The notes below the pieces were generated by a model, which was not told the DNA's origin, did no database searches, and saw nothing but the letters and a program-made list of their open reading frames with translations. The translations under genes and the position numbers were made by a program. A stretch of 57,469 nucleotides of DNA from a bacterium (lineage in GTDB: Bacteria > Patescibacteriota > Minisyncoccia > Minisyncoccales > CG1-02-41-26), in contig JAUSHZ010000005.1 of assembly GCA_030648255.1 (NCBI GenBank), positions 1-57,469 on the forward strand, read 5' to 3'. This document shows, in pieces, positions 7,601 through 47,795 of the stretch. Position 1 is the first letter of the stretch. Each line of letters starts with the position of its first letter.

Positions 7601-8631
7601 CTGGAGGCACAGAAGACCAGCTAACTTTGGGTTATTGGAATGAAAGCACGAATGAATGGACAGCAGTTGACGCAGTGGTTGATAAAGATAATAACAAAAT
7701 CAGGGCTAATACTTCTCACTTTTCTTTGTATGCGCCGTTATTGCCATCAGGTAGTAATCCGCCTTCCACGCCCGGAACACCTTCTGGAGCTGTGAGCGGA
7801 ACAAGTATTATAGTTTCGTGGACAACTTCAACCGACGATACTTCAGTGGCTGGGTATGAGGTTTATCGCAGCACAGCGGCTGATGGAACATTTAGCAATG
7901 TTTCTGGCGACTCTTGGTCAACCGGCAGTTTTGTTTCATCGGTTTTGGTTGGAACTTCCTGTGCCAATGGAACTTGCTCTTGGACAAATTCTTCTATTCC
8001 AGTCAACACAACATACTATTACAAAGTGTCGGCTTTTGATAACGAGGGAAATAACTCAACTACTTCTGGCGCTTCAAGTGGCACAAAATTTGAAGGGCTT
8101 ACCGGCGGAGGATCTGTTATTACTGGTGGCGGGGGAATAGCCGGGTCTCCAACCGTGCCTGCTACTGTTGTTGCCACAACAACAGTTGCCACCACAACTT
8201 TTACCACTACCACTACCACTGTTACAATACCGATTGTTACTAAACCAATCTCGCAAATGACTATTCCAGAATTGCAAGCGGAAATTGTTAGAATTACCGC
8301 TTTAATAAATCAGTTAATAGCAATGATTGGGACAGCCGGAAATTCGGGAATACAACCACCCGGCCTTCTTATTAGCAGAATTACTAAGGTTTTGAAAGCA
8401 GCGATGTCAAATGATGAGGTGAGGATATTACAGACATGGTTAGCAAAGGATCCAACAATCTATCCTGAAGGAAAAATAACCGGTTATTTTGGCGCTTTAA
8501 CTAAAAAAGCGGTTATAAAGTTTCAGGAAAAGTACGCCAGCGAGATTTTGACTCCGAACGGATTAATAAAAGGCACAGGATTGGTTGGGGCCTCAACAAG
8601 AGCAAAACTAAACAGTTTATTCGGGCAATAA
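1660..8631 (+). CDS. Giant (2323 aa) secreted surface protein: Big_5-like Ig domains, carboxypeptidase-regulatory-like repeats, FN3-like domain, Thr-rich linker, C-terminal PG-binding domain
   Basis: Signal peptide; FSDPMD/FSEAINPSTV Ig-like motifs; repeated ISG.V....A.V.A...TDSSG.Y.L.V..G.Y; PPSTPGTPSG...YEVYRS FN3-like; C-term nearly identical to that of 554..1513. Confidence 0.85.
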   Translation: MRIIKIFCFSLVVFGVALSAPFVLAQEAGVGVMHMPVNKAVGQAGGGATTTASIFVRAGGPSAPYADVGSYATDTAKLQVKVYYRNSDGAFFNSACIHRGIGFHECRIGVGPGDVNRQIGYYVGAIATTTPATVSSYMPGVSQALASSSPFSITAQNSNLGAANIGGKVVFSASLSPAIAVSASTTIPLAGNPMSYTSYEVGQINVGDYIFLDTISAVRQVLGTSTNSLTVDSAVTITTATKIYKLIPDAWIFAEGTIHNATSSGDAANTGSFSLTNMAAGSYKLTAFKPGFCDVSPPPFFTGVTNNLLFLSAGCGGGVGGTMEAFKVFWTAPNDNMMGAPKDIAFNKSDMSQTRSPILISLSQNASSTTITTSTVTLKQVVSGSLVAVTSTAVHYYDPLDATSFCTTGGVAGNCFGPDRKIILYSSQQLAPDSQYIVEITSGVLSSNGNPLQGNRQAGGQMFLFTTSGDISGMTAGQFGSGGAFMPPFVTGMTPPGGSFGVPLDSNILMMFSDPMDSTTFTSDNFKLCSVSNAFTAAETENCTLSFSVALDTATKKIATIDPASNFTSSVHYRVKVLGGAKSAAGITIGPPNQASFMVFKGDFDAGTAVDSGNPTVLGTNLGKYLSGSSYINVPVSNMIEVNFSEAINPSTVDKNSMTVKINGGTTNVDGTVQYDGFSNKARFVPSEVLQINSVYNLTFATSVQDLAGNALDGDTGTVGVQMYALAFTTTGTADTTGPQVVKLNADNYVAEIEFNEPVLAVSLSDSKWASSTLNSANYTIKYGAAGTNFGVDCANGNAAVLTSAKVSYDAGRMVAKIENIKAAGGAALTVGNDLCVFVDNITDISNNALNESYDSVVAPMKDHSQTYGTFSGSGLMMGPPTTAGGIIGPMIGTNKPEDMGMMPVAARPMNSMANLSTLYFFDIPTTKALENGGFVVLDFKKQGFDVTNAIPDPNSPMRTDWNGPGPGVVTLDASYDSDGIAVNADLETITLKLAITGTPSALDFYHFDVSGIKNPAANTSGYTIDISTKKPDGSTVLETKSTMPFTITQAGSRTISIGITVNASSTNSAIGLATSTLKVNLGSPMTGPMEGTISFAKGQKTATTTFTGLPDGEYFLFTNSGLSLPVCADAICSASTSKDVMGIAMPDPIRVSGSNASRGFILTGGDKSGATAIEVYLKGNFGNRDVDIFASSPNGFVKKKLVAVGNLAGFTLYNFYLPSNGSWRVGIGPAMPEGPVAMGPVLMPDWMPPANVQVTASTTGNASDFKSECIESSNTANDCKLNFEIKTATQKIIGYVKDSSGNAIADAGVDAFKTAGFGMPSHSQTDTTGKFELKVALGDSNAAETYGLQAFKPGLPPSSQKTVVITQNDKNPSGTTDALVDSNTTANAYIDGSIGVTNASPLVLYVTKGGYTISGYVYEDTASDAKKVANAQVWANNTANGQFIPGSTDSSGLFVLYVSAGTWKVSGHTSELGDLPSATVVVTSANQSVNLRPSTAKSSMNTISGNTGTGASMLTNVQIWIEGLTTSNQRYENRAMSDSSGNYSLKVPSGCYRIHAKDTTYGEYALTYKDGTNSSSCVSGDVTANLAPPASGQFTTLSFRFVNAPASSTRAFIDSFDSTNNAGNHLEIPIIASATSSENLKVTNTGGRSYLIRAIVPGLGEFEPTGNSGYSATTHKTTIAEGTASKVIVFTLPTAGNQVVISGTVTSTAGAVAGAMVWISNLSSGFQFNAFSSSSGAYSMRVPAGTYRMGVDKPGYSGEALTDTTFTSSTTKDFILTTNANTISGKITSDGSTAISSAWVWAEKVTSATNDTLSGGWSGGQTDSQGNYSLSVGSGYWQIKSSADGYNETKYGSIVSAASNPTVNITLSAKSGYTVKESKQQSMIPSQGGVFDDSQGDTGVKLTIPQNFDDDTGQGKVIVRETNAPSTDSRKPLGGKAKEVSIYDSNNTSLKGSADTDTTAGSGSTISLEISYSESDITAAGGTEDQLTLGYWNESTNEWTAVDAVVDKDNNKIRANTSHFSLYAPLLPSGSNPPSTPGTPSGAVSGTSIIVSWTTSTDDTSVAGYEVYRSTAADGTFSNVSGDSWSTGSFVSSVLVGTSCANGTCSWTNSSIPVNTTYYYKVSAFDNEGNNSTTSGASSGTKFEGLTGGGSVITGGGGIAGSPTVPATVVATTTVATTTFTTTTTTVTIPIVTKPISQMTIPELQAEIVRITALINQLIAMIGTAGNSGIQPPGLLISRITKVLKAAMSNDEVRILQTWLAKDPTIYPEGKITGYFGALTKKAVIKFQEKYASEILTPNGLIKGTGLVGASTRAKLNSLFGQ

Positions 8632-8641
8632 AAAGCCCTAG

Positions 8642-8702: not shown

Positions 8703-8751
8703 GCTGTTGAAGCTCGGTTTTTATGGCTCCCCAAAACCGAGCTTCAACAGC
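8703..8751. repeat. Palindromic repeat, copy 1 (19-bp perfect stem, 11-nt loop)
   Basis: gctgttgaagctcggtttt-tatggctcccc-aaaaccgagcttcaacagc. Confidence 0.9.
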
Positions 8752-34007: not shown

Positions 34008-34021
34008 ATTTATAAAAAAAT

Positions 34022-34052
34022 CTTAATTCCTGATTCTTAATTCATAATTCTT
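34022..34052. repeat. Degenerate 7-nt repeat array, intergenic
   Basis: cttaattcctgattcttaattcataattctt; reverse strand reads gaattat-gaattaa-gaatcag-gaattaa. Confidence 0.75.
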
Positions 34053-34060
34053 TTTTCACT

Positions 34061-34816
34061 ATGATTGGTATTATTATTCAGGCCCGGATGGGCTCAAAAA
34101 GATTGCCAGGAAAAATGATTAGAAAGATTCTTGGTAAAACAGTTTTAGAGCATGTTATTTTTCGCTTGAAAAAGATTAAAGCTCCCTCTTTAATTATTTT
34201 AGCCACGACTACTAACAAGAAAGATAGTATTCTAGAGGAGATCGCTAAAGAAAATAAAATAAAAGTTTTTCGAGGTTCAGAAGACGATGTTTTAGATAGG
34301 TATTATCAAACAGCCAAACAATTTGCTATTGACCCGATTGTGAGGATTACAGCTGACTGCCCGGTTTTGGATTGGCAAATTTGTGATGAGGTAATTAGCT
34401 TCTATCTAGACAATAAATTCGACTATGTAAGTAATGTACGCCCCCCAACATTTCCCGACGGCTTAGACATTGAGGTTTTTAGCTTTAAAGCCTTAGAAAA
34501 AACTTGGCAAAACGCTAAATTAAAATCAGAAAGAGAGCACGTTACAGCTTATATTGGAAACCATCCAGAAATTTTTAGAATCGGCAATTTTATTAGAAAT
34601 GGCAATGATTTGTCTGGTTTAAGATTAACTTTAGATGAAGCAAAAGACTTAATTTTAATAAGAAAAATTTATGGCGCTTTATATAAAAAGAAAAGATACT
34701 TTGTCTTGGACGATATTTTAAATTTTTTTGGGCAAAAACCAGAGCTATTGAAAATTAATAAAACAATTAAGCGCAATGAAGGATTATTAAAGTCGCTTGC
34801 AGGGGATCGCTGTTGA
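34061..34816 (+). CDS. SpsF/PseF-like cytidylyltransferase
   Basis: IGIIIQARMGSKRLPGKMI..ILGKTVLEHVIFRLKK; GSEDDVLDRYYQTAKQ; RITADCPVLD. Confidence 0.85.
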   Translation: MIGIIIQARMGSKRLPGKMIRKILGKTVLEHVIFRLKKIKAPSLIILATTTNKKDSILEEIAKENKIKVFRGSEDDVLDRYYQTAKQFAIDPIVRITADCPVLDWQICDEVISFYLDNKFDYVSNVRPPTFPDGLDIEVFSFKALEKTWQNAKLKSEREHVTAYIGNHPEIFRIGNFIRNGNDLSGLRLTLDEAKDLILIRKIYGALYKKKRYFVLDDILNFFGQKPELLKINKTIKRNEGLLKSLAGDRC

Positions 34817-34857
34817 AACCGAGCTTTAAGGGCTCCCAAAAGCTCGGTTTCAACAGC
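34809..34857. repeat. Palindromic repeat, copy 2 (19-bp stem, 11-nt loop; inner arm module inverted relative to copies 1 and 3)
   Basis: gctgttgaaaccgagcttt-aagggctccca-aaagctcggtttcaacagc; contains stop codon of the upstream CDS. Confidence 0.9.
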
Positions 34858-34873
34858 TTAGAAAACTAAATTT

Positions 34874-36199
34874 ATGAATTTACAAGAAAAAAATAAAAAA
34901 GGCATAGAGCTTTATAAAAGAGCCAAAGAGATAATCCCTGGGGGAACCCAGCTTTTAAGTAAAAGGCCAGAAATGTTTCTACCTGATTTATGGCCAAGTT
35001 ACTATCAAAAAGCAAAGGGCTGCTATGTGTGGGATCTAGATGGCAACAAATATCTCGATTTCGCTTATATGGGCATTGGTGCTTGTATTTTGGGGTATGC
35101 TGATGAGGATATTAATAAGGCAGCTAAAGAAGCAATTGACAACGGATCAATGAATACCTTAAATTGCCCAGAAGAGGTGGAGCTAGCAGAGTTATTATTA
35201 AAAATTCACCCTTGGGCTGGTATGGTGCGTTATGCTCGAACTGGTGGGGAATCGATGGCTGTGGCTATTAGAATTGCTCGGGCGTATTCAGGCAAAGATA
35301 AGGTGGCTTTTTGTGGGTACCACGGCTGGAGTGATTGGTATTTATCGTCTAATTTAGCCAACGATAAAAATTTAGATGGCCACTTACTATCAGGTTTAGC
35401 TCCCAACGGAGTGCCTCGTGGCTTAACAGGTACAATGTTGCCTTTCCATTACAATAAAATTGAGGAGTTGGAAAAAATAGTATCAGAAAGTAATGATATT
35501 GGCGTTATTGTAATGGAGCCGATGAAGTTTCAGGCAGATAGTTCTGGATTTGTGAAAAAAGTTCGGGAAATTGCCGATAAAATAAAAGCTGTTTTAATCT
35601 TTGATGAAATTACCGTGGGCTTTAGATTTAATATCGGGGGGAGCCATTTAAAGCTTGGCATTAATCCCGATATGGCTGTTTTTGCCAAGGGTATTTCTAA
35701 CGGTTTTCCAATGGGGGCTATTATTGGCAAAAAAGAAATAATGCAATCGGCCCAGACAAGTTTTATATCAAGCACTTATTGGACAGAACGGATTGGTCCA
35801 ACCGCCGCCATTGCCACAATCAACAAGATGATAAAGGAAAATGTTCCAGAATATTTAGAAAAAACTGGTTTGGCTATTAAAAATGGGCTAGCTAAAAAAG
35901 CGGAAGAACATGGTGTAAAACTTCATATTGAGGGTTTCCCAGCTATGTTGCATATTTCTTTTGATTACCCTAATGCCCAAGCCATCAGAACTTTGTATAC
36001 TCAAGAGATGTTGAAAAAAGGAGTTTTGGCTTCTGGGGGAATATATGTTTCTTTGGCTTTTAAGGAGGAACATATAAAAGAATTTTTAGAAGCAGTGGAT
36101 GAAGTTTTTCCAATTTTAAGTAAAGCTATAAAAGAAAATAAAGTTGAACAAATGCTGGAAGGCCCAATTGCCCATACCAGTTTTCAGCGATTAAATTAA
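34874..36199 (+). CDS. Class III aminotransferase, glutamate-1-semialdehyde aminomutase-like
   Basis: KEIIPGGTQLLSKRPE..; RYARTGGESMAVAIRIARAYSGKDKVAFCGYHGWSDW; ILIFDEITVGFR-type motif (AVLIFDEITVGFRFN). Confidence 0.88.
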   Translation: MNLQEKNKKGIELYKRAKEIIPGGTQLLSKRPEMFLPDLWPSYYQKAKGCYVWDLDGNKYLDFAYMGIGACILGYADEDINKAAKEAIDNGSMNTLNCPEEVELAELLLKIHPWAGMVRYARTGGESMAVAIRIARAYSGKDKVAFCGYHGWSDWYLSSNLANDKNLDGHLLSGLAPNGVPRGLTGTMLPFHYNKIEELEKIVSESNDIGVIVMEPMKFQADSSGFVKKVREIADKIKAVLIFDEITVGFRFNIGGSHLKLGINPDMAVFAKGISNGFPMGAIIGKKEIMQSAQTSFISSTYWTERIGPTAAIATINKMIKENVPEYLEKTGLAIKNGLAKKAEEHGVKLHIEGFPAMLHISFDYPNAQAIRTLYTQEMLKKGVLASGGIYVSLAFKEEHIKEFLEAVDEVFPILSKAIKENKVEQMLEGPIAHTSFQRLN

Positions 36200-36203
36200 A
36201 AAA

Positions 36204-37592
36204 ATGAAAGAACAAAAAAGTGAAAAAATAGAATTTATTGGTGAACATGGCAGTGAAATCCTACCTTTAACTGAAGGAGACGAACGAGAAGTTGTTAAAG
36301 GAATTATCGAAAATGAAGAAAATATACCAAATGAAAAAGAAGTAGAAGATATTTTAGAAAAGTTTGAAACAAAAGTATTTCTTTTAGAAAAGCTCGAAGA
36401 GGAAATTGAAGAAAATGCTAAAAAAGTTTTACTGACTATTTCTGACCCATTGGCAATAAGAACGATGAAGCCGTTAATTGATAAATTAAGATCAGACCCG
36501 CGATGTCGGGCTATAGGCATTATAACAGACAATGTAGCTGGTAAGGAATTAGAAGCTTCATTTCAAGATGATGAAGCGTCTATAAAATTTGAAGCTATCA
36601 GGGGTGAAGAAGGTTCAGTATTTCTCGATGCCCTAAAAGCAGCTGACGAAGAACCATTTGATGTAGCCCTATCTACCATGGAGTCATCAAACAGTCCAAG
36701 TGGTTCTTTGCTTTACAATGCTAAAAGCGCTTTTGGGGCAGAGAAATTATTTTTAATTTTTGATAATTGGAATGGGATTGGTGGTCGCCCTGATCTTTTT
36801 AATAATAAGGCACAAATGGAAAGTATTGACGGGATGCTTTGTGGTGATAATTTAGCAAAAAATATTTTGTCACAACAATTACCTGATTTTCCTCAAGAAA
36901 AAATAGTGGTTACTGGAACACCTATTCTTGATGAATTAGAAAAAGAAAAATTAGCCGAGTGTCCTCAAAAAGCTCGAGAAAAACTAGGGTTAGATGATAA
37001 TGAGATAGCTGTTCTTTATTTGGGAGATGTTTCAGCTGATTATGAAAAATTTGGTGAGGAAGTTGATGAACGAATAAATGAAAAAACTTTCAATCAAACA
37101 TTTGAAGCAATAATAGACTTAGCTGAAGCACAGCCGGAAAAAAGATTTGCTTTAATGGTTAGGCCGCACCCAAGAGATCCCAATAAAGAAAATATATTAA
37201 ATTTATCTACAGAATCATTGCCAGAAAATTTAAAGGTTATTTTTGCCACCAATGATCTAGTTTCAATAAATGAAGCGGGGTGGGGCTGCGATATAACCCT
37301 TAGTATTATTAGTACAGAAAATTTTATAGCTTCTTTACGTGGTAAAAAAAGTATTTTTTTAGGCTATCAAAATGGTCTTGGCGGAGAAGTCTTAAAGAAG
37401 GTATTTGGTGAAGAAGTTTTGCGTGCGATTGAACTAGAGAAAGATATTTCCATAGCTTCTTCGCTCGAGGATTTAGGAGAACAGCTTAAAGATTATAATC
37501 GCCCTAAAGAAGATAAAATAACTGAACAGTCAGAAGGTGTTATTGGGAAAAGCTCTACTGAGAGAATACTAAACATTGTCTTAGAAAGTTAA
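36204..37592 (+). CDS. Unrecognised GT-B-like protein with acidic N-terminal extension, in the pseudaminate-type gene block
   Basis: VLLTISDPLAIRTMKPLIDKL; VVTGTPILDEL; ALMVRPHPRDPN; IISTENFIASLRGKKSIFLG; family not recognised. Confidence 0.5.
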   Translation: MKEQKSEKIEFIGEHGSEILPLTEGDEREVVKGIIENEENIPNEKEVEDILEKFETKVFLLEKLEEEIEENAKKVLLTISDPLAIRTMKPLIDKLRSDPRCRAIGIITDNVAGKELEASFQDDEASIKFEAIRGEEGSVFLDALKAADEEPFDVALSTMESSNSPSGSLLYNAKSAFGAEKLFLIFDNWNGIGGRPDLFNNKAQMESIDGMLCGDNLAKNILSQQLPDFPQEKIVVTGTPILDELEKEKLAECPQKAREKLGLDDNEIAVLYLGDVSADYEKFGEEVDERINEKTFNQTFEAIIDLAEAQPEKRFALMVRPHPRDPNKENILNLSTESLPENLKVIFATNDLVSINEAGWGCDITLSIISTENFIASLRGKKSIFLGYQNGLGGEVLKKVFGEEVLRAIELEKDISIASSLEDLGEQLKDYNRPKEDKITEQSEGVIGKSSTERILNIVLES

Positions 37593-37602
37593 ATACTAAC
37601 TT

Positions 37603-38064
37603 ATGAAAGTTAATCTTAAAAAAGCGAATGAAGACGATAAAAAGTTTTTATTTGATTTAAGGAATAAAGATTATGTTTATAAGAATTCTGGAACGCCAAG
37701 AATGGTTGAATGGCAAGAACATATCAATTGGTTAGAAAGAGTTTTTTCAGGCCAAGCGAATAAATATCTTTTTGTGATTGAGGTAGATAGAGAAAGAGCG
37801 GGGCAAGTAAGGTTTGATATTGAATTAGAAAATAAACAAGCCATAGTGAATATTTCGTTGCTTAAAAAATTTCATGGCAAAGGCATTGCTAAGGAGGCGA
37901 TAGAACAAGGAATAGATAAAATGGCGAAAGAAAAAGAAATAAAAAAATTTATTGCCGAGATTCATCAAGATAATACTGCTTCGCAAAAATTATTTGAAAA
38001 ACTTGGTTTTGTATTTCAAAGTCAAGATGACATTTGGAGAACTTATTTAAAAAAATATGTTTAA
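37603..38064 (+). CDS. GNAT N-acetyltransferase (PseH-like position)
   Basis: VNISLLKKFHGKGIAKEAIEQGIDKMAKE; NTASQKLFEKLGF. Confidence 0.82.
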   Translation: MKVNLKKANEDDKKFLFDLRNKDYVYKNSGTPRMVEWQEHINWLERVFSGQANKYLFVIEVDRERAGQVRFDIELENKQAIVNISLLKKFHGKGIAKEAIEQGIDKMAKEKEIKKFIAEIHQDNTASQKLFEKLGFVFQSQDDIWRTYLKKYV

Positions 38065-39079
38065 ACAACTTAAAAAAACTCTTATTATTGCCGAGCTTTC
38101 TGCTAACCACAATGGAGATTTCGAAAAAGCTAAAGAGCTTGTCCGTCAGGCCTGTTTGTCTTTGGCTGATGTTGTTAAAATCCAAACTTACACTCCAGAC
38201 ACAATGACCTTAAATTCCGAAAAGGATCCGTTTCAAGTAAATGTGAATGAGGCATGGAAGGGGCAAACTCTGCAGCATCTTTACCAAATAGCCCAAACCC
38301 CATGGGAGTGGCATAGCGAGTTGGAAAAAATAGCTAAAGAAAACGGCGCTCTTTTCATTGGTACTCCGTATGACATAACATCAGTTGATTTTTTAGAAAG
38401 TAAAAACTGCCCGTTTTATAAAGTGGCATCTTTTGAGGCCACAGATATTAATCTTTTAAAAAAAATAGCTCAAACCAAGAAACCCGTGGTAATAGCTCGG
38501 GGTATGACAAGCTTTGAAGAGTTGTCTCAAGCTATAACAATTTTAAAAGAAAGCGGCGCAAATGACATTGCTGTTTTGCATTGTGTGAGCGCTTACCCCA
38601 CTAAAGTGGAAGATTTAAATTTATTAACAATCCCAGAGATTCAAAGGAAATTTCCTGATGTGGTAGTGGGGCTTTCTGACCATAGCCTAAGTGTTGTTTC
38701 TGGAAGTGTGGGGGTAGCTTTGGGGGCTAAAATAATTGAACGCCATTTTATTTTGAGCAGAAAAGACGGAGGCCCAGACGCTGCTTTTTCTTTGGAGCCG
38801 GGCGAGTTTTCTAAGATGGTTGAAATGATAAGAGAAACAGAAAAAATACTGGGCAAGCCTTTTTTAGAAGCAGTTGAAAGTGAAAAAGAAAACAAGCAAT
38901 TTAGGAGATCGCTTTGGGCTATAAAAGATATAAAAAAGGGCGAAAAGTTTACCACAGAAAATATTGGCAGTTTTCGCCCCGCAGTTGGCTTAGAGCCAAA
39001 ATATCTAAGTGAGGTCTTGAAAAAAAAAGCTTTAGTAGATATTGAATTTGGAACGCCCTTGTCTCGGGATTTATTTTAA
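38057..39079 (+). CDS. pseI: Pseudaminic acid synthase/NeuB-family protein with C-terminal SAF domain
   Basis: IIAELSANHNGDFEKAKELVRQA..ADVVKIQTYTPDTMTL; KVASFEATDINLL; GLSDHS; C-term SAF-like. Confidence 0.9.
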   Translation: MFKQLKKTLIIAELSANHNGDFEKAKELVRQACLSLADVVKIQTYTPDTMTLNSEKDPFQVNVNEAWKGQTLQHLYQIAQTPWEWHSELEKIAKENGALFIGTPYDITSVDFLESKNCPFYKVASFEATDINLLKKIAQTKKPVVIARGMTSFEELSQAITILKESGANDIAVLHCVSAYPTKVEDLNLLTIPEIQRKFPDVVVGLSDHSLSVVSGSVGVALGAKIIERHFILSRKDGGPDAAFSLEPGEFSKMVEMIRETEKILGKPFLEAVESEKENKQFRRSLWAIKDIKKGEKFTTENIGSFRPAVGLEPKYLSEVLKKKALVDIEFGTPLSRDLF

Positions 39080-39090
39080 TTTTGACTTTT

Positions 39091-39139
39091 GCTGTTGAAG
39101 CTCGGTTTTTAAGGAGCCCCAAAACCGAGCTTCAACAGC
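39091..39139. repeat. Palindromic repeat, copy 3 (19-bp stem, 11-nt loop)
   Basis: gctgttgaagctcggtttt-taaggagcccc-aaaaccgagcttcaacagc, followed by partial duplication of the right arm (ttcaacagcc). Confidence 0.9.
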
Positions 39140-39163
39140 CTTCAACAGCCATGTGTATATTCT

Positions 39164-39943
39164 ATGTTTAAATATGGAATTAAAATTTGGAGTACTAATA
39201 AGGATTGGTTCAGCCAAGTAATAGATTTAATTAAACAGGGCAGGGCTGATTTTGTGGAAATCTATTTAGTGCCTAATCTTTTTGACTTGGCTGATTTTAG
39301 TATTTTTTTAGAAAACAAAATTCCTGTAGTTATTCACGCTCCCCACACTACGCACGACTTTGATGTTTTCAATTTAACCCCCGAAAATCTGCAAATTTGG
39401 CATAATCAGGTTGTAAAAGCAGCGGATTATTTAGATAGTCGGTTTATTGTAGTCCACCCGGGAGTAGGGGACAGCAAAGAAATTTTTAAGCGAGAAGCAG
39501 CTAAAATTAAAGACCCAAGAGTTTTAATGGAAAGTATGATTAAAATTGGTTTTGTGGGTGTGAAAGAAGGCGGGGTTATGTGTTTTGGTTACTCTAAAGA
39601 AGAGTTGGAATTCATTCATAAAGAATGCGGATTTGAAATTTGTTTTGACGTGTGCCATTCTTTGGCTTCGGCTGTTTGGCAAAAAATTGATCCTTATGAT
39701 TTTATCAGCGAGTGTATTGATATTTTAAAACCAAAATATTTTCATTTATCTGGAGGCAATGTTGAGGATGAAACAGATAAGCATTTGGACTTATGGGAGG
39801 GAACTTTTGATTATAAATTTGTAAAAGAAAAACTTGCTCCAATACAGCAAGTAGAAGATATATTTTTATCTTTTGAAGTTCCCAAAAAAGACGATGGCCT
39901 TGAGAATGATCTTAAAAATATAGAATATTTTAGGAATCTTTAA
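39164..39943 (+). CDS. Sugar phosphate isomerase/epimerase-like TIM-barrel protein
   Basis: VVIHAPHTTHDFDVF; FIVVHPGVGDS; ICFDVCHSLASA; YFHLSGGN. Confidence 0.7.
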   Translation: MFKYGIKIWSTNKDWFSQVIDLIKQGRADFVEIYLVPNLFDLADFSIFLENKIPVVIHAPHTTHDFDVFNLTPENLQIWHNQVVKAADYLDSRFIVVHPGVGDSKEIFKREAAKIKDPRVLMESMIKIGFVGVKEGGVMCFGYSKEELEFIHKECGFEICFDVCHSLASAVWQKIDPYDFISECIDILKPKYFHLSGGNVEDETDKHLDLWEGTFDYKFVKEKLAPIQQVEDIFLSFEVPKKDDGLENDLKNIEYFRNL

Positions 39944-46854: not shown

Positions 46855-47795
46855 TTCAGAATAAGCTAAAAAAGAATATTTCATTAAAAGATTTAACTAC
46901 TTTTTGGATTGGCCCAAAGGCAAAATATTTTTGCCAAACCAATAGCAGAGAGGAAGTGGTTGAAGCGATAAAATGGGCTAAGGCAAAAAGAATGCCTTTT
47001 TTTGTTTTAGGCGGGGGAAGCAATGTTTTAATAAATGATAAAAAATATAAAGGATTGGTTATTAAGATACGAGAATCAGGAATCAGGAATCAGGAATCAG
47101 GAATAGAGGTTGGGGCGGGGGTAGCGTTGGGTAAATTGGTTGGGGTTGCGCTACAAGAAGGTTTAACTGGAATGGAGTGGGCTATGGGGATTCCTGGAAC
47201 AGTTGGGGGAGCAATATATGGGAATGCAGGGGCTTTTGGGCAGTCAATAAGCGATTGCGTGGAAAAGGTGGAAGCGATTGACTTCGAGAATCAAGAATTA
47301 AGAATTAGGAATTATGAAAAAGAAGAGTGCGATTTCAATTATAGAGATTCAATTTTCAAGAGAAATAAAAATTTAGTAATTTTATCAGCAAAAATAAAAT
47401 TACAAACAGGAAATAAAATAGAAATTGAAAATAAAATGAAAGAATATTTTCAAAAGAAAAAGCAAACTCAACCTTTAGAATTTTTTTCTGCTGGCAGCGT
47501 GTTCAGGAATCAAGAACTAGGAATTAAGAATCAGGAATTATTGAAACAATTTCTTGAATTAAAACAATTTCAAGATAAAAATATTATTCCATCTGCTTGG
47601 CTAATAGAAAAAGCGGGTTTAAAAGGCAAGCGAATTGGGGGAGTAGAAATATCCCGAAAACATAGCAACTTTATTGTTAATAACGGCCGTGGCAAAGCCC
47701 GCGATGTAAAAAAACTAATTGACTTGACTAAAAAAACGGTTAAAAAAAAGTTTGGCGTTGACTTAGAGGAGGAAATTCAGTATTTAGGTTTTTAA
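46848..47795 (+). CDS. murB: UDP-N-acetylenolpyruvoylglucosamine reductase
   Basis: LKDLTTFWIGPKAKYF; FFVLGGGSNVLINDKKYKGLVIKI; GMEWAMGIPGTVGGAIYGNAGAFG; YRDSIFK; SAGSVF; start placed at 46848. Confidence 0.92.
   Translation: MDFQNKLKKNISLKDLTTFWIGPKAKYFCQTNSREEVVEAIKWAKAKRMPFFVLGGGSNVLINDKKYKGLVIKIRESGIRNQESGIEVGAGVALGKLVGVALQEGLTGMEWAMGIPGTVGGAIYGNAGAFGQSISDCVEKVEAIDFENQELRIRNYEKEECDFNYRDSIFKRNKNLVILSAKIKLQTGNKIEIENKMKEYFQKKKQTQPLEFFSAGSVFRNQELGIKNQELLKQFLELKQFQDKNIIPSAWLIEKAGLKGKRIGGVEISRKHSNFIVNNGRGKARDVKKLIDLTKKTVKKKFGVDLEEEIQYLGF
47073..47100 (+). repeat. Four exact tandem copies of gaatcag inside murB
   Basis: gaatcag x4, then gaatag. Confidence 0.9.
47288..47315 (+). repeat. Degenerate heptamer array inside murB
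   Basis: gaatcaa-gaattaa-gaattag-gaattat. Confidence 0.85.
47507..47541 (+). repeat. Degenerate heptamer array inside murB
   Basis: gaatcaa-gaactag-gaattaa-gaatcag-gaattat. Confidence 0.85.

Follow-up and report, generated by a model that had tools for sequence, protein, structure and literature searches.

Inverted palindrome doublets and a RAYT-like Y1 transposase in a Patescibacteria genome

How can a hairpin have the inner part of both its arms turned around and still pair perfectly? The question is raised by three 49-nt hairpins in a 57,469-nt stretch of contig JAUSHZ010000005.1 (the window), which belongs to a genome of 846,593 bases (G000; assembly GCA_030648255.1) from a lineage of Patescibacteriota. 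An earlier note on the window had placed the hairpins, without strand, at 8703–8751 (copy 1), 34809–34857 (copy 2) and 39091–39139 (copy 3), and we found all three there with 19-bp stems free of mismatches, 11-nt loops and identical outer arms. Folded as single-stranded DNA (ssDNA), they reach –22.3 to –22.7 kcal/mol, as compared to a mean of about –5 for shuffled sequences (z about –9 to –10). On the plus strand, the inner 11 nt of the left arm read AAGCTCGGTTT in copy 1 (8710–8720) and copy 3 (39098–39108) and AAACCGAGCTT in copy 2 (34816–34826). These modules are exact reverse complements that differ at 5 positions, and in copy 2 the module is reversed in the left and the right arm with pairing intact, just as the note had it. 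We think it probable, with good confidence, that the hairpins are REPINs, that is, inverted doublets of repetitive extragenic palindromes (REPs), dispersed together with a cognate HUH/Y1 transposase that resembles the REP-associated tyrosine transposases (RAYTs). REPINs and RAYTs are known already (PMC3116915, PMC2817692); this reading would extend their partnership to Patescibacteria.

A dispersed family of palindrome doublets

To find further copies, we searched the whole genome with the outer arms only, allowing any 31 nt between them, so that the search put no constraint on the inner sequences. The pattern occurs at 13 places and the reversed pattern, used as a control, at none, indicating that the hairpins are not due to chance. 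A covariance model built on the 13 copies finds about 40 places at E ≤ 1, the weakest of which are uncertain matches. The dispersed, REP-like family that the earlier note had thought possible is present, and its alternative, that only the three copies exist, does not hold. The family comprises 49-mers, 48-mers, one perfect 50-mer and 25-nt singlets. The singlet, which is the REP, reads GCTGTTGAA-CCCGAGC-TTCAACAGC and is a palindrome that is asymmetric only at its center (CCCGAGC or GCTCGGG). When every half-site is printed, the 49-mer consists of two near-complete singlets, inverted, on either side of an 8-nt GGGAGCCC-type spacer, with arms that match REP(+) or REP(–) at 16–19 of 19 nt. The two arms agree in polarity in all 13 copies, which would have a probability of about 2e-4 if arms were independent. 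In the 50-mer (contig C2:6604), GCTGTTGAACCCGAGCTTCAACAAG is followed by CTTGTTGAAGCTCGGGTTCAACAGC, giving two complete singlets, inverted and back to back. Copies at C19:814, C24:40993 and C9:2704 keep 20–21 nt of the singlet, GCTGTTGAA(A/C)CCGAGCTTCAA, ahead of the spacer; the arms of the last are non-identical yet of the same polarity.

Both polarities of the doublet exist. Copies 1 and 3 are of type A, REP(–) spacer REP(+), and AAGCTCGGTTT is the center of REP(–); copy 2 is of type B, REP(+) spacer REP(–), and AAACCGAGCTT is the center of REP(+). Because the outer arms of the REP are self-complementary, A and B doublets have the same outer arms and can be told apart only by the module. Judged from these alignments, the flipped module is the asymmetric REP center lying in either of two orientations, and the odd-looking double inversion resolves into REP polarity. 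The earlier note had proposed independently inverted modules that need a special kind of rewriting; REP polarity accounts for their appearance, although rewriting of the arms is still the likely route between A and B, as discussed below.

When we mapped 37 copies onto the genes, we found 26 in intergenic DNA or at gene ends and 11 wholly inside long open reading frames (ORFs), including that of the transposase. Among ORFs named by Pfam, in-frame copies are present in enolase (residues ~131–148, between its N- and C-terminal domains), KsgA, which has two, the IPP transferase MiaA, a MiaB-like radical-SAM/UPF0004 protein, a Mur ligase and a ThrRS-type class II tRNA synthetase. KsgA orthologues in the congeners G001 and G002 and in others do not have this insert, and the NeuB junction of G001 that is orthologous to the site of copy 3 has no hairpin. 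Of all signs of insertion, these absences, seen in highly diverged relatives, are the strongest. In KsgA, the loop that precedes NLPYNI looks like a hot spot for insertions (G000 C26:1854–2819, locus L041; also L148 and L149): in G000 it holds inserts of this family, and at the first site the congeners carry other short repeat-like inserts, CAACGTTCAACGTTAAACGTTCAACG in G001 and GGCCCCGAGCTCACTGCCGAGGGG in G002. A nested doublet lies in the G000 ksgA gene (C26:2160–2259), where a 48-nt copy has apparently inserted into the spacer of another.

A transposase gene flanked by the palindrome and containing it

The earlier note had suggested looking for a RAYT-like transposase, and we found a Y1 gene flanked by the same palindrome. 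It is the single Y1_Tnp (PF01797; IS200-like Y1 domain) gene detected in the genome (C9:53009–53761; 250 aa), scores 33.8 bits against a cut-off of 23, and has the HUH motif NHFH and the invariant Y162. A 25-nt REP lies ~12 nt upstream of the ATG and an inverted REP ~6 nt downstream of the stop (L014:1198–1222 and ~1992–2016), and a third REP is found in frame inside the ORF. Outside the REPs, the DNA of the gene occurs once in the genome. We considered whether the 5' part between the upstream and internal REPs is a mobile unit of its own and found no other copy of it in the genome. The predicted structure of a homologue that comes from 'Ca. Gribaldobacteria' and is 70% identical (L087; mean pLDDT, the per-residue confidence score, 83.8) has a RAYT fold, with a RAYT bound to a REP hairpin (4er8; E 9.4e-05) as its top match in the PDB. 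In this model residues 58–67 form the only internal segment with a pLDDT below 50 and coincide with the residues encoded by the palindrome, which is therefore predicted to encode a permissive, disordered loop before the HUH motif; the in-frame REP would be tolerated because of this loop.

We collected homologues from 60 relatives and from 61 named loci, most of them from Patescibacteria (Nealson-, Gribaldo-, Staskawicz-, Nomura-, Kaiserbacteria and others). The palindromes that flank many of these genes differ wholly in sequence from lineage to lineage. At 45 loci with matching flank pairs, we asked whether the flanking palindrome also occurs within the ORF (at least 15 of 17 central bases) and found that it does in 31, as compared to 34 of 1,980 cross-lineage pairings. 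The comparison indicates that palindrome and transposase coevolve across lineages. In 28 of the 31 the internal palindrome is at residues 54–68, upstream of HUH, where the alignment is otherwise gapped and variable; two others lie near residue 130 (L122, L123) and one near residue 183. All three codon phases are seen among the internal palindromes, suggesting that these were replaced repeatedly and not simply inherited. An invariant pattern of orientations (+,+,–) for the upstream, internal and downstream REPs holds in G000 and several others, but in just 11 of the 31 loci. With about 30 natural pairs of enzyme and target, and the target written three times per gene, the coevolution of DNA specificity in HUH transposases can be tested directly.

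The internal REP probably persists either as an extra cognate binding site, through which the gene would be autoregulated, or because it is converted in concert with the REPs on either side of the gene. The internal copy may thus be an autoregulatory target or a passively homogenized insertion at one tolerant loop. We suggest tentatively, and hold it somewhat doubtful as a whole, that a large Patescibacteria Y1 group carries, at a fixed site before HUH, an in-frame copy of its own changing target palindrome, that selection keeps this copy as a site of self-recognition or autoregulation that coevolves with the specificity of the enzyme, and that the same enzyme seeds protein-coding REPINs in housekeeping genes.

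As to how the doublets spread, the fold of the Y1 protein and its association with the REPs suggest that it would recognize the REP hairpin in ssDNA at replication forks, and would nick and paste REPIN doublets; cleavage and joining of its own REP as ssDNA is a putative activity. Both polarities would be viable because the recognized sequence is palindromic, and insertions would survive in gaps between genes, at gene ends and in protein loops.

Spacers, polarity switching and rival explanations

The spacer is common to types A and B. Its core is GGG-NN-CCC, and the central dinucleotide is variable, with CT, AG, GG and AT all seen. The earlier note had read the cores of copy 1 (GGCTCC) and copy 3 (GGAGCC) as an independently inverted loop; the copies do differ there, but by two bases only, and inversion need not be invoked. 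Gradual point mutation, which the note had set against modular inversion, is not what the arms show, while the loop center does vary base by base. The congener G001 has the same spacer between arms with its own REP center (TATCGGAT / TATCCGAT), again in both polarities, and G000 copies with other cores also have it (C7:526, C11:2253 and C24:308). The same spacer between differing arms indicates that the center persists while the arms are rewritten. Arm rewriting around the conserved center, by template switching or conversion, is thus the likely route between the two polarities. For A and B to be converted under a fixed spacer, the short REP center would be inverted in one arm by a template switch and the second arm would then be recopied from the first. 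In yeast genes, reversible inversion of 3-nt spacers between 10–11-nt arms occurs together with arm homogenization by template switching (PMC8604942), and inversion and homogenization by template switching are likewise documented for RNA hairpins (PMC8794818).

Several points weigh against the REPIN reading. Simple doublet formation does not account for spacers that are common to A and B and to species with different REPs; such spacers require arm rewriting, for which the support is indirect. No movement has been observed, and the species is represented by one strain, so that there is no orthologous pair with presence and absence or with A and B. The transposase scores 14.3 bits against the NCBIfam RAYT equivalog NF047646, whose cut-off is 80, and G000 has GTTG or GCTG in place of the canonical 5' GT[AG]G foot (the latter is present in 2 of 16 lineage palindromes checked, including that of G001). 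Because of the equivalog score and the foot, we file the system as RAYT-like and not as a canonical member; the palindrome family behaves like a REP, yet is not a canonical GTAG REP.

Template switching might also have acted without any transposition, with long inverted repeats being repeatedly inverted and homogenized at replication and the Y1 gene incidental. The modules of the two types are related by an exact inversion of 11 nt, with 5 positions that differ, there are the precedents in yeast genes and RNA hairpins, and the non-identical arms of one polarity at C9:2704 are what would be expected before homogenization. However, this explanation leaves unexplained the dispersal to about 40 places, the in-frame insertions in unrelated housekeeping genes and the match, lineage by lineage, between hairpin arms and the REPs that flank the transposase, and we consider it improbable. 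We give even less credence to regulatory hairpins, that is, intrinsic terminators or mRNA stabilizers that are conserved for their function and whose palindromes evolve by compensatory change. While the hairpins are stable and many lie at the ends of genes or between genes that run in the same direction, a terminator scan gave no terminator-like score for copies 2 and 3, and inspection of the sequence directly after copy 1 revealed no T tract, so the copies do not conform to an intrinsic terminator (GC-rich stem, loop of 3–8, T tract). No Rfam match was found, and 11 of the 37 mapped copies are inside ORFs; those in enolase, KsgA, MiaA, the Mur ligase and ThrRS imply that the family is not simply made up of terminators. 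A regulatory function is therefore contradicted as the general role, although single copies could have been co-opted. Least credible of all is that GCTGTTGAA is a DNA uptake sequence, a competence signal in inverted pairs. It is a short repeated word in inverted pairs in a host of the candidate phyla radiation (CPR) type, but every exact GCTGTTGAA word in the window belongs to a hairpin or abuts one, uptake signals are mostly numerous single words, and the palindrome changes together with the linked transposase. We rejected this candidate on the distribution of the exact words in the window.

Related systems and neighboring sequences

The group departs from known systems in where the palindrome is inserted, in its motifs, in the sequence of the foot and in the phylum of the host. 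As in the REPINs and RAYTs of Pseudomonas (Bertels & Rainey 2011, PMC3116915), inverted REP doublets are dispersed as hairpins and are related to the palindrome that flanks a low-copy Y1 gene. In contrast to those, the doublets here are much shorter (48–50 nt, spacer 0–11 nt), number about 40 rather than hundreds, exist in both polarities, are often in frame inside genes and have no GTAG foot. The tnpA-REP genes of TnpA-REP subclass 2.4 are known to contain in-frame REPs, for the most part between HUH and Y (Quentin et al. 2018, PMC6006769). The likeness is that REPs are present on both sides of the gene and in frame inside it (31 of 45 loci here), and that the 'double-foot' REPs of subclass 2.4 are symmetric palindromes that may have arisen from a REP dimer through loss of its central part. 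In contrast, the insertion here is before HUH in 28 of 31 rather than between HUH and Y, the proteins have FQ where subclass 2.4 has WQ and are ~250 rather than 194 aa long, and those of the close group have Y-I-Q-V-x-N in place of YIxNNP. The text of PMC6006769 makes no mention of candidate phyla or Parcubacteria. L122 (~3390) and L123, from Patescibacteria/Gottesmanbacteria, encode shorter Y1 proteins (~195–200 aa) with the palindrome site nearer that of subclass 2.4. In the literature searched, which is thin on subscription journals and makes this a weak absence, we found no relevant paper that joins RAYTs or REPs with Patescibacteria or CPR.

TIRYT / subclass 2.1 Y1 proteins (Di Nocera 2013, PMC3733652; Quentin 2018) are alike in length (~240 aa), in their NH[YF]H and FQ motifs, and in having inverted repeats, some self-complementary, rather than GTAG REPs. 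In contrast to these, we found no Pfam helix-turn-helix match in any of 26 Y1 members scanned here, and the flanking palindromes recur within the gene and as dispersed doublets. The in-frame copies have a further parallel in the Rickettsia palindromic elements (RPEs; cited in PMC3733652), which are in-frame palindromic repeats in functional housekeeping genes. Here, in contrast, the palindrome is also present in a cognate Y1 gene, which ties a transposase to the kind of in-frame palindromic insertion into housekeeping genes that is known, in small genomes, from RPEs. RPEs are longer, at ~100–150 nt, and are not known to have an assigned transposase.

Around the hairpins of the window, copies 2 and 3 are within an apparent glycan-type gene cluster (~34061–39943) with a cytidylyltransferase and a NeuB-like synthase. 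The left arm of copy 2 provides the stop codon (TGA, 34814–34816) of the upstream cytidylyltransferase ORF (34061–34816). Adjoining copy 3, its last 10 nt (CTTCAACAGC) are directly repeated on the plus strand at 39140–39149 as a partial second copy. A second short repeat family, made of GAATCAGGAATCA / GGAATTA units that are both direct and inverted, is present at 34019–34057, 47069–47111, 47284–47320 and 47507–47546, and the enolase ORF (L029) appears to hold an in-frame stretch similar to this family (ESGIKNQELGI). Finally, two neighboring ORFs, one of 319 aa and one of 2323 aa that has Big_5 and CarboxypepD_reg domains, share a C-terminal region that is 76–93% identical and contains Thr-rich linker repeats (1084–1516 and 8202–8634).
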